Assembly: GCF_014467075.1 (NCBI RefSeq)
Contig: NZ_AP023027.1
Coordinates: 1,615,501-1,679,500 of the forward strand
Direction: 5' to 3'
Source: Anaerostipes caccae L1-92
Lineage (GTDB): Bacteria; Bacillota; Clostridia; Lachnospirales; Lachnospiraceae
Length of the DNA: 64,000 bases
The position numbers were made by a program, and so were the translations under genes. Under the pieces are notes generated by a model. That model made no database searches and had not been told where the DNA came from. It saw only the letters and a list, made by a program, of their open reading frames with translations. Shown one piece after another: positions 1,546 through 4,592 of the stretch (position 1 is the first letter of the stretch; each line of letters begins with the position of its first letter).

Positions 1546-2763
1546 ATGAGAAAATACTATTACCGCAAAATTCTCATTGCTCTGTTTGTCATAAACATCG
1601 TTGGAATCTGCGCCGTTTATTTCAAATACTGCAGAAATGTACTGCCCAACGCCATCGAACTGACGATGGGAGAGAAAGCCTGTCTCAAATACGACGTTCC
1701 GGCCGTGGGAATGGTCAAGGATCAGAAGATCAAACTGAACCAGCCGTTCGTGCTGACCAAAGATTCGGTGGGGCAGGATGAGATCAAAGCAAAGCTGTTC
1801 GGCGCCATACCTTTAAAAGACATTAAGGTGAATGTCGTCAAACAGAAAACATTGGTGCCAAGCGGAAAGATTGTCGGCATCTATGTAGAAACCAATGGGA
1901 TCCTTGTGCTGGAAACAGATATGATCACCGGAGTGGACGGAGGAAACCATTCCCCAAGCTCCAATAAACTGTATCAGGGTGACTATATTCTGTCAGTGAA
2001 CGGTTCAAAGGTTGAAACAAAGGTTGATTTTATGAAAAAGATCAACGAATGCAATGGAAAGGAAGTTACCCTGGAAGTGATCCGGAACCATAAAAAAACA
2101 AAGATCAAAGTTAAGCCTGTGCAGTCTGTCACAGACAGCCAGTACAAGATCGGCGCCTGGGTCAGAGATAATACACAGGGCATCGGAACTATGACTTATG
2201 TGGCCGGAACCGAATTCGGAGGCTTAGGACATGGTATCTGTGATATGGATACCGGAAAGCTGATGGACATCAAGGGCGGATACCTGCTGACTCCGCAGAT
2301 TGACACGATCCAGAAGGGGAAATCAGGATCTCCGGGAGAGATTGTAGGAAGCATTTTTTACAAGGAGGCAAATCTTCTGGGAACCATCCGCAAGAATACC
2401 AAATACGGCATTTACGGTACGACTCAGTCGGATAAGAAAGACAAGGCTTACCGAATCGGCTATAAACAGTCGGTGAAGAAAGGCAAAGCGCAGATCATAA
2501 GCTGCATCAGCGGCAGGAGAGAGACTTATGACATTGAAATCAAAAGTGTGGATCAATCCAACCATGATGTGCTGAAAGGGATGGAGATTGAGATTACAGA
2601 TCCAAAACTTTTAAAGCTGACGAATGGTATCGTTCAGGGAATGAGCGGGACTCCTATCATTCAGAATAACCACATTATAGGTGCAGTGACCCATGTGTTT
2701 GTGGATGATTCGACAAAAGGGTACGCAACCTTCATTGAAAACATGCTGAATTCCTCTAAATAA
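1546..2763 (+). CDS. spoIVB: SpoIVB peptidase (S55 family)
   Basis: SpoIVB is the forespore-secreted serine protease that triggers pro-sigma-K processing by cleaving SpoIVFA in the intermembrane space. The 405-residue protein has an N-terminal membrane anchor (about residues 8-27), a PDZ domain (about 105-185) and the S55 peptidase domain. His229 (in GGLGHGI) and Ser367 (in GMSGTPII) are at the positions expected of the catalytic pair. The start is set by AGGAGG about seven bases before the ATG. It lies directly before spo0A, the usual clostridial and bacillar order. Confidence 0.95.
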   Translation: MRKYYYRKILIALFVINIVGICAVYFKYCRNVLPNAIELTMGEKACLKYDVPAVGMVKDQKIKLNQPFVLTKDSVGQDEIKAKLFGAIPLKDIKVNVVKQKTLVPSGKIVGIYVETNGILVLETDMITGVDGGNHSPSSNKLYQGDYILSVNGSKVETKVDFMKKINECNGKEVTLEVIRNHKKTKIKVKPVQSVTDSQYKIGAWVRDNTQGIGTMTYVAGTEFGGLGHGICDMDTGKLMDIKGGYLLTPQIDTIQKGKSGSPGEIVGSIFYKEANLLGTIRKNTKYGIYGTTQSDKKDKAYRIGYKQSVKKGKAQIISCISGRRETYDIEIKSVDQSNHDVLKGMEIEITDPKLLKLTNGIVQGMSGTPIIQNNHIIGAVTHVFVDDSTKGYATFIENMLNSSK

Positions 2764-2873: not shown

Positions 2874-3692
2874 ATGAGCAAAATTAATGTGGCAATCGCG
2901 GATGATAATCAGAAAATGGTCAGTATGATGACTCAGCTTTTAAACTTAGATCAGGAGATCGAGGTCATCGGAAGTGCCGGCAACGGGGAAGCAGCCGTGG
3001 AGATTATCAAAGAGAAAAAGCCGGACGTTGTTCTTTTGGATATTATCATGCCGAAGCTTGACGGAATCGGGGTTTTGGAAAAGCTTCGTGATGAGAGACT
3101 TGAAAAACAGCCGACGGTGATTATGGTGACTGCCATGGGTCAGGAAAGTGTTGCCGAAGAAGCGATGGAGCTGGGTGCATCTTATTTTATCCTAAAACCA
3201 TTTGATTCGGAAATGGTAATCCGAAAAATAAAACAAGCAAAATTAGACAAAAAAGTACAGAAGCCTTTTGTCGCATTAAAGGAGCAGGAAGGTCTGAATA
3301 AGAACCAGCTGGAGATCATTATCACAAACATTATCCATGAAATAGGTGTGCCGGCTCACATTAAGGGTTATCAATATTTGAGAGATTCCATCATGCTGGC
3401 CATCTACGACATGGATATTCTGAACTCCATCACGAAACAACTATATCCAACAATTGCCAAACAGTTTGGTACTACATCTAGTAGAGTGGAACGGGCGATC
3501 CGCCATGCCATCGAGGTAGCCTGGGGACGCGGGAAAATGGATACGATTGATGCGCTGTTCGGATATACGGTCCATGCAGGGAAAGGGAAACCGACAAATT
3601 CAGAATTTATTGCACTGATTGCAGATAAAATCAGACTTGAATACGGAGATCGAATCGTGTCGCAAAAAATGTCTGAAAATGATGGAAGATAG
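2874..3692 (+). CDS. spo0A: Stage 0 sporulation response regulator Spo0A
   Basis: Spo0A is the master regulator of sporulation entry; it binds 0A boxes when phosphorylated. The 272-residue protein has an intact receiver domain (1-125) with the acidic pair in AIADDN, phospho-acceptor Asp56 (VVLLDIIMP), the switch Thr in MVTAMG and the Lys in LKPF. The C-terminal sigma-factor-interacting and DNA-binding domain (about 150-268) carries [18 protein letters not shown] chose the ATG at 2874 because GGAGG lies about nine bases upstream and the protein then starts at the receiver; an in-frame upstream extension lacks homology. A second, divergent spo0A copy follows immediately. Confidence 0.97.
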
Positions 3693-3715
3693 TAAATATT
3701 GTTTGATTATGCGAT

Positions 3716-3743
3716 TGACAAAGGGGAATATGCTTGATATATT
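3716..3743 (+). promoter_or_regulatory. Sigma-A-type promoter of the second spo0A-like gene
   Basis: TTGACA (3716-3721) and TATATT (3738-3743) are separated by 16 bases. They lie 43 bases before the start codon of the paralog, so it can be transcribed independently of spo0A. Confidence 0.65.
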
Positions 3744-3785
3744 TCTCTCTTAGAATGGTTAGATTTGGATGGAGGGGTATACATA

Positions 3786-4592
3786 ATGTATGATAAACGG
3801 AAAATTTTGATCGCCGTCAGCAGTCAAAATGAGGCTAAAGAACTTTGCAGAGAAATGGAGAATGAAATGCAGGTAGTGGGAGTGGCTTATGACGGTGCTT
3901 CCGCAGTAAAGCTGATTAAGGAACATGAGCCCGATGTGGTAGTGATCGATATTGTACTTCCGGTTTTAGACGGACTGGGTGTAATCGAACAGTGCAACGG
4001 GACGATGGACGACGACAAGATACCTTCTTTTATTGCAATTACCTCCATCGGCAATCAGAGACTGATCGAGTGTATCAGCCTTATGGGTGTCGACTACTGT
4101 ATGATGAAGCCGTTTCATACGAATGTCTTAATGGACAGAATTAATCAGATGATGAGAATGAAAAGAGTAAATAATAACTTCCAAAAGACATTTGAGGTGA
4201 AAAGCGAGCCGGTCAAAAAAACGTTTACAGAATATGATATCCAGAAAGATGTGACAAAGATCATCAGAGATCTGGGAATTCCTGCTCATATCAAAGGATA
4301 TCAGTACATTAGGGAAGGCATCATCATGGCGATTCATGATGTCAACATGATGAATTACATAACAAAGCTGCTATACCCAACAATTGCACAAAAATATAAA
4401 ACAACTTCCAGCAGTGTGGAAAGAGCGATCCGCCACGCCATAGAAGTGGCATGGAGCAGAGGAAAGATCGAACTGCTGGAAGAGATGTTCGGATATACGA
4501 TCAGTGCCGGCAAAGGGAAGCCGACCAATTCTGAATTTATAGCGCTGATCGCAGATAAACTCAGGCTGGAATATCACATGAACGCCTCTTAA
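3786..4592 (+). CDS. Spo0A paralog with degenerate receiver pocket
   Basis: A second full-length Spo0A-family protein (268 residues) directly follows spo0A. Its DNA-binding domain is close to Spo0A ([34 protein letters not shown]), so it probably recognises related sites. The receiver keeps Asp55 (VVVIDIVLP), a Ser/Thr in AITSIG and the Lys in MKPF. However, the acidic pair that binds Mg in true receivers is replaced: AIADDN becomes AVSSQN. By receiver chemistry this should abolish or weaken phosphorylation. It may work without phosphorylation or modulate Spo0A, which is inference. The start at 3786 follows GGAGGGG and has its own promoter. Confidence 0.9.

Follow-up and report, generated by a model that had tools for sequence, protein, structure and literature searches.

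Two full-length spo0A genes lie in tandem in Anaerostipes caccae L1-92, and the second encodes Spo0A2, whose assignment as a pseudo-receiver paralogue of Spo0A is well supported by profiles and alignments. The reading preferred here, with a probability of roughly one half, is that Spo0A2 derives from an old tandem duplication and would bind 0A-like sites beside its neighbour Spo0A1 without phosphate control. The window, i.e. the whole stretch of 64,000 nucleotides analyzed (G000:C1:1615501-1679500), belongs to a genome of 3.59 Mb on one contig; sequence comparison gave A. hominis, A. butyraticus, Anaerostipes sp. MSJ-23 and Ca. A. avistercoris as its named close relatives. Coordinates of the features are collected in the table.

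Table. Features of the tandem spo0A locus, in window positions.
Feature	Position	Strand	Basis
spoIVB peptidase gene	1546..2763	+	TIGR02860, 343.4 bits against a cut-off of 305.25; directly upstream of the pair
spo0A1, canonical Spo0A, 272 aa	2874..3692	+	TIGR02875, 357.8 bits; ATG at 2874, stop at 3692
spo0A1 residues D10, D11, D56, K108 and R204 (= R211, B. subtilis numbering)			alignment
Sigma-A-type promoter-like site of spo0A2 (TTGACA-17-TATATT)	3715..3743	+	consensus match, 11/12
spo0A2, pseudo-receiver Spo0A paralogue, 268 aa	3786..4592	+	TIGR02875, 287.9 bits; ATG at 3786, stop at 4592; clade membership
spo0A2 codons V11-S12, at the place of the Spo0A acidic pair D10-D11	3816..3821	+	sequence and alignments
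spo0A2 codon D55, retained phospho-acceptor position	3948..3950	+	sequence and alignment
spo0A2 codon S210 (= R211 of B. subtilis Spo0A), recognition helix	4413..4415	+

The gene order in the window is a recN-like open reading frame, spoIVB, spo0A1, spo0A2 and, on the opposite strand, an rqcH-like gene, the two flanking frames being what we take to be recN and rqcH from their protein sequences. Outside the genus, G196 and G104 have spoIVB, spo0A1 and spo0A2 in this same succession, and spoIVB lies away from the pair in some congeners (G005, G006). Both proteins exceed the NCBIfam Spo0A cut-off of 200 (TIGR02875), and Response_reg (PF00072) and Spo0A_C (PF08769) are over the Pfam cut-off in each, in agreement with the prediction of two full-length Spo0A genes side by side; by profile and by both domains, Spo0A2 belongs to the Spo0A family. 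The two proteins are 48% identical across 242 aligned residues, the receivers sharing 42 of 118 residues and the C domains 74 of 116, so that describing the DNA-binding domains as nearly alike was too strong. A third Spo0A_C protein of the same genome is a stand-alone form of 162 aa with a short, different N-terminus (L003 1327-1815, L052; C1 at about 2.766 Mb; see also L046), present also in G004 and G009, next to a gene that is presumably CoA-transferase-like. A shorter stand-alone Spo0A_C type of about 120 aa occurs in G001, G005 and G010.

The receiver site distinguishes the two copies. Alignments place V-A-I-A-D10-D11-N12 of Spo0A1 opposite I-L-I-A-V11-S12-S13 of Spo0A2, and a single AlphaFold model of Spo0A2 (13-row alignment, mean pLDDT 76.9, pTM 0.50), used for receiver fold and register only, predicts strand 1 at residues 6-10, with V11-S12 following immediately. 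The original prediction had read the change as ADD to VSS with Asp55 kept; this register is one residue late (ADD to AVS), although both acids are indeed gone and D55, the equivalent of D56 in Spo0A1, is retained. The site in the window protein therefore reads V, S, D, T and K at the two acids, the acceptor, the T/S and the K position. A complete phospho-receiver site (two acids, acceptor D, T/S, K) is absent, which by this measure makes Spo0A2 a family member by descent and not a functional Spo0A equivalog; a receiver recognized by profile that lacks key catalytic residues is what defines a pseudo-receiver, or atypical response regulator.

Across the Spo0A2 clade the second acid, the direct Mg ligand, is acidic in none of 31 sampled members, while the acceptor Asp is present in 30 of 31 (23/24 in the core set). 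Within the core set T or S was found in 22/24 and K or R in 23/24. The claim that the Mg-binding acidic pair is destroyed holds for the window protein but does not extend to the clade, since 18/24 keep D or E at the first acid and only 6/24, three of them the caccae group, lose both. As controls, the second position is D in 15/19 Spo0A1 (one gap) and in 59/64 other Spo0A rows (one gap), the latter including L043, a Spo0A1 fragment of G007. The acidic pair is also missing in some of the other rows, namely L054 (G017), L066 and L068. In a protein database of approximately 5.8 billion entries, a Spo0A2 profile returned 6389 matches, from which the best 120 were taken and 118 scored after two evident fusions were dropped; these best matches, which lean towards the Spo0A2 profile by construction, have an acidic second position in 1, the acceptor D in 117, and Ser211 in 111 against Arg in 7. 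Three database proteins (P0001, P0038, P0045) resemble fusions of neighbouring spo0A copies, attributable to tandem-gene recombination or to assembly collapse. The loss at the receiver site is thus selective: the metal ligand goes, and the acceptor and the DNA-reading residues stay. With the direct metal ligand missing throughout the sampled clade, normal phosphorylation control is unlikely.

The kinase-docking face was compared at seven Spo0A receiver specificity positions, following the examples in Table 1 of PMC6136694 and our own mapping to 12, 14, 15, 18, 21, 22 and the KPFD aspartate. Hydrophobic residues occupy position 15 in 94% of Spo0A1, 97% of the other Spo0A and 9% of Spo0A2; the corresponding values are 56%, 83% and 17% at position 18, and 94%, 94% and 46% at position 22. 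The KPFD aspartate is present in 13/19 Spo0A1, 55/64 others and 2/24 Spo0A2. At positions 12, 14 and 21 polar residues predominate in every group, and these sites say little. By this comparison the helix-1 kinase-docking face of Spo0A2 has been largely rewritten. The differences bear on the idea that Spo0A2 is still phosphorylated, as an unusual metal-poor receiver with perhaps a long-lived phospho-form and a different kinase. The near-constant retention of the acceptor D, T/S and K, together with a first acid that is usually D or E, is what this idea would expect, and D, T and K are kept more often than in pseudo-receivers at large, for which the available text of PMC12632262 gives roughly 65%. 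The same retention counts against the preferred reading, as some phosphorylation, perhaps with altered metal use, could persist. Nevertheless, a phosphorylated Spo0A2 is considered very unlikely given that the direct metal ligand is missing in 31/31, that the window protein is without both acids, and that most residues at docking positions 15 and 18 are polar or charged where hydrophobic ones would be expected.

In the DNA-binding domain, B. subtilis numbering was applied by an offset of +7 from the window protein. Contacts between Arg211 and DNA, and the sigma-A contact region at 227-240, are background and were not used as evidence. Position 211 is Ser in all 24 core Spo0A2 and in 30/31 when seven added rows are included (Cys in L064), as compared with Arg in 24/24 Spo0A1 (19/19 in the first set) and in 61/64 other rows. 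Four of the five recognition-helix residues considered, E213, R214, R217 and H218, are each kept in 24/24 Spo0A2. Further C-domain positions are consistently changed, the full set being 162, 166, 176, 179, 188, 192, 196, 211, 232, 233, 235 and 266, and the His162 position is Arg in 92% of Spo0A2. Because of the replacement of R211 by Ser and these other C-domain differences, binding of the same 0A sites cannot be assumed. Of the predicted 0A binding without normal phosphorylation control, the second part is thus favoured by the loss of the metal ligand, whereas the first is put in doubt by Ser211. Another genome, G203, encodes two Spo0A of full length, each with an intact receiver and on a separate contig (L181 and L185); L185 carries Ser211 and falls outside the Spo0A2 clade, indicating that Ser211 can occur with an intact receiver.

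Ser211 is an argument for a Spo0A2 with a regulon of its own, in which the altered residue would change the DNA site that is read and the function would be other than sporulation entry. Consistent with this, no perfect TGTCGAA core (0A box) was found between spo0A1 and spo0A2, and the window holds 4 such cores where 9.4 would be expected, including one at 2709-2715 at the end of spoIVB. The other four recognition residues are, however, unchanged, 13 records outside the genus have spo0A2 still adjacent to spo0A1, and spoIVB adjoins the pair in G196 and G104, so that a separate regulon appears quite unlikely. The kept E213, R214, R217 and H218 make some 0A recognition plausible and fit a second alternative, in which Spo0A2 would be a phosphorylation-blind competitor on 0A boxes that restrains sporulation, or maintains repression, until phosphorylated Spo0A1 outnumbers it; the consistent C-domain changes could uncouple binding from activation. 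Also in its favour, a Paenibacillus polymyxa strain that combines Spo0A R211H with a change in DegU is described as not sporulating in the available text of PMC9195935, and as still making polymyxin efficiently, if somewhat affected, in that of PMC10782996. Spo0A H162R is likewise reported to counter the A257V defect (PMC9195935, available text). The R211H and H162R reports are leads for the Spo0A2 residues and not tests of them.

With the Spo0A2 protein as query, an orthologue was found next to spo0A1 in 10 of 11 genomes of the genus, its own included, at 64-100% identity; in G007 the contig ends within spo0A1. The remaining genome, G001, was considered as a natural knock-out that had lost the pair, and this was rejected, as 2336 bases separate its rqcH-like gene from the contig start. 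The pair of G005 begins about 2.2 kb beyond the rqcH-like gene, so the gap in G001 is probably one of assembly, with the caveat that in G006 the rqcH-like neighbour is located elsewhere. G001 has SpoIVA and a SpoIIE match; a full SpoIVB match was not found there. Additional copies were observed in two congeners: G006 has three spo0A in tandem, the third Spo0A2-like (L041 4031-4843), and G003 has a third Spo0A2-like copy elsewhere (L036 1890-2693), which groups with L041 on long branches.

To cover the family, 397 Lachnospiraceae genomes were searched with a profile built from 13 Spo0A2 proteins; 243 of them matched at 1e-60, and six candidates per genome were scored. Spo0A2-clade members were present in at least 18 of the 397, including the genome studied here. 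The tandem pair occurs in 13 records outside the genus, comprising twelve genomes (G074, G104, G140, G165, G185, G196, G209, G217, G222, G292, G352, G367) and the record of L083, and the second acid is lost in every clade member sampled. Spo0A2 is dispersed and not in tandem in G021, G226, G274 and G319, so adjacency is not obligatory. A maximum likelihood tree of 106 rows, with a midpoint root and a bootstrap that had not settled, placed the 24 Spo0A2 rows and the ungrouped L064 (G021) in a 25-row fork with support of 100/100, and 17 of 19 partner Spo0A1 in a clade with 100/94. FastTree on 123 rows gave similar groupings, in that the smallest clade with all 24 Spo0A2 contained 31 rows (support 0.987) and 22 Spo0A1 partners formed a clade (0.989). 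These phylogenies fit one old tandem spo0A duplication within Lachnospiraceae, followed by losses or moves.

Selection on spo0A2 was examined in pairs of related genomes. The dN/dS of spo0A2 was 0.017 for the window against G009, 0.022 against A. hominis, 0.035 for G005 against G010 and 0.033 for G002 against G007, and that of spo0A1 in the first three of those pairs was 0.013, 0 and 0.044. A more distant pair, G008 and G003, gave 0.11 for spo0A2 and 0.08 for spo0A1. The C domain of Spo0A2 has no amino-acid change in four close pairs, and no stops were found inside the listed Spo0A2 matches. The paralogue is thus neither absent nor randomly mutated in close relatives, consistent with what had been predicted, and is under strong purifying selection. 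A decaying, functionless duplicate could account for a receiver that diverges faster than that of Spo0A1 (congeners differ by a mean distance of about 0.5-0.8, against 0.2-0.3), but the dN/dS of 0.017-0.035 in close pairs, the unchanged C domain and the lack of internal stops speak against it and leave it scarcely credible; random decay was accordingly rejected, low dN/dS being joined by conservation across the clade. Receiver distances of the two copies correlate across 16 pairs (r = 0.77). After removal of the C-domain distance the partial r is 0.23, with 80 of 2000 permutations as high; keeping a single congener leaves 10 pairs and a value of 0.45. Once corrected, the signal of correlated evolution between the receivers is weak. 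In the congener spo0A2 genes L039 2816-3622 and L048 2535-3341, dS is 0.10 in the receiver half and saturated in the C-domain half, which suggests within-gene recombination.

Spo0A1 itself is eroded in part of the clade. Among 22 tandem-clade Spo0A1 the acidic pair is intact in 13, not intact in 8 and not scorable in 1. Both acids are gone in Spo0A1 of G074, G104, G140 and G222 and in two of G367, and single losses affect the second acid in G165 and the first acid in G209; the acceptor Asp is also missing in three of the eight (G165, G222 and one G367 copy). The loci of G074, G104, G140, G165 and G222 are L123, L124, L128, L180 and L178. A PF08769 search of G074, G104 and G140 and a profile search at 1e-60 of G165, G222 and G367 turned up no Spo0A whose acidic pair is intact. 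SpoIVA was chosen as the sporulation marker because SpoIIE (TIGR02865) performed poorly, with 0/26 genomes over the cut-off. It is present in G074, G104, G140, G165 and G222, each at least 97% complete. As controls, SpoIVA is present in 7/7 genomes with an ordinary Spo0A match (G018, G019, G022, G024, G025, G027, G029) and in 0/5 with no Spo0A match (G012, G014, G015, G077, G084). SpoIVA was not found in G367 (83% complete), in the Spo0A2 carrier G274 (89% complete) or in G064 (86% complete), which has two dispersed Spo0A with a changed second acid. The G367 draft contains two tandem Spo0A pairs (L177, L190), all four receivers being non-canonical. G381 and G064 (L183, L184, L188, L191; completeness 84-86%) each have two dispersed Spo0A with Arg211 and His or Cys at the second acid.

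The erosion of Spo0A1 bears directly on the competitor reading. Competition with a normal Spo0A is not tenable as a general role, since in several genomes the acidic pair of Spo0A1 is likewise not intact; there Spo0A2 is retained although no normal phospho-Spo0A exists to compete with, and the competitor is on balance held to be unlikely.

A second route to receiver loss was observed among the 27 genomes whose best Spo0A2-profile score fell between 1e-60 and 1e-70. In 26 of them the best Spo0A is 172-222 aa long from the first possible start, with the receiver deleted (L008, L015, L139-L162; e.g. G013, G032, G414), and consists of a receiver-start remnant, a linker and an intact C domain; the 27th, G166, keeps a receiver, in a protein that is truncated where the contig stops. 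In L141 (G306) the internal deletion appears to have arisen independently. Other Spo0A_C matches of the 26 genomes are mostly short frames. G013, G234, G255 and G418 each have a further frame of 244-274 aa (64-116 bits), which is without a receiver in G013 and might carry one in the other three. SpoIVA is kept in 25 of the 26 receiver-deleted genomes, being absent in G242 and matched with one internal stop in G230, and this combination supports the view that phospho-control of Spo0A has often been given up in Lachnospiraceae. A broader and tentative proposal, which we regard as possible though doubtful, is that part of the Lachnospiraceae abandoned the Spo0A phosphoryl switch and kept the sporulation genes, by way of a tandem Spo0A1-Spo0A2 pair in one lineage, whose receivers both erode and which would act as a phosphorylation-independent Arg211/Ser211 heteromer, and receiver deletion in another, with entry set by expression level and not by kinases.

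The promoter-like site upstream of spo0A2 matches 11 of 12 consensus positions, with TG before the second hexamer, and is the best of 8 sites found in a 2 kb scan, compared with 5.0 (sd 2.3) in shuffled sequence. By eye, in an alignment of nine intergenic sequences, it is shared by the window, G009, A. hominis and G002 and is not evident in the other five. The predicted sigma-A-type promoter of spo0A2 is therefore seen as a pattern in the window but is not general, and a separate promoter was rejected as a defining trait of the paralogue.

Comparison with known systems indicates which parts of this arrangement have precedents. Spo0A2 resembles Spo0A (TIGR02875), the master regulator of Bacillus and Clostridia, in domain order, Spo0A_C, acceptor Asp, the residues E213, R214, R217 and H218 and, in the window and some relatives, its place after spoIVB; it differs in the lost second acid (31/31), the replacement of most docking residues, the change of R211 to Ser and its position beside a second Spo0A. 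It likewise falls under the definition of pseudo-receivers in the available text of PMC12632262, a receiver fold without at least one of five active-site residues, and has the same bias as those proteins, in which the second acid is most often lost (non-acidic in about 80%, the first in about 20%). Unlike pseudo-receivers at large, it keeps nearly all acceptor D, T/S and K. The main text of that review has 0 occurrences of Spo0A. The assumption of one Spo0A per genome had already been broken by Clostridium thermocellum, for which the available texts of PMC3804516 and PMC4890492 report a second full-length Spo0A (Cthe_3087 / Clo1313_0637); that copy is described as only distantly related and, unlike the tandem Spo0A2, carries a locus number far from the first. 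Phage-borne truncated Spo0A (PMC10294663) also represents a DNA-binding domain freed from phosphorylation control, but it comes from viromes and is without a receiver, whereas Spo0A2 keeps its receiver and adjoins spo0A1 in bacterial genomes. The available text of the Anaerostipes genome paper (PMC12888040) annotates spo0A from database matches with the second copy unmentioned there, and reports spores in both A. caccae strains and in one of two A. hadrus strains tested. No description of the tandem spo0A pair was seen in the literature searched, most subscription journals lying outside its scope. Pseudo-receivers and a two-spo0A genome are thus already known, and the tandem Spo0A1-Spo0A2 pair is not seen described.

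The preferred reading, that Spo0A2 acts beside Spo0A1 without phosphate control, can be phrased as a mechanism. Spo0A2 would fold and dimerise like Spo0A without being switched by the sporulation kinases, and would occupy Spo0A-type sites with or beside Spo0A1, as a heterodimer or a neighbouring subunit. Its dose, set by transcription, would then tune which promoters are open to activation by Spo0A1. In genera where neither receiver metal site is intact, the pair probably runs without any phosphoryl switch. Adjacency, joint retention and the weak distance correlation are consistent with a pair, and by analogy we infer a partner mode of Spo0A2 with Spo0A1. A parallel in action is BldM with WhiI, which to our knowledge are not Spo0A-family proteins and have not been described as a tandem pair. 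According to the available text of PMC4125116, these form a heterodimer of atypical regulators in Streptomyces sporulation, and the two systems would be alike if Spo0A1 and Spo0A2 pair up. Phosphorylation of Spo0A is presented as the key switch in bacilli and clostridia by Galperin et al. (PMC3533761, available text). Because Spo0A2 adjoins a copy with a complete site in many genomes, the pair offers a clean test of pseudo-receiver function.

Textbooks present phosphorylated Spo0A as the gate to endospore formation, and descriptions of Clostridia take a receiver driven by kinases for granted. Lachnospiraceae abound in the gut, and their spores are relevant to transmission and to live therapeutics. 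A conserved pseudo-receiver twin, together with genomes that have spoIVA but yielded no Spo0A with both acids in place, would imply a rewired entry decision, and part of the spore-formation decision may no longer be run by phosphorylation. Predictions of spore formers from a single spo0A match would miss the Spo0A2 twin and such rewiring.
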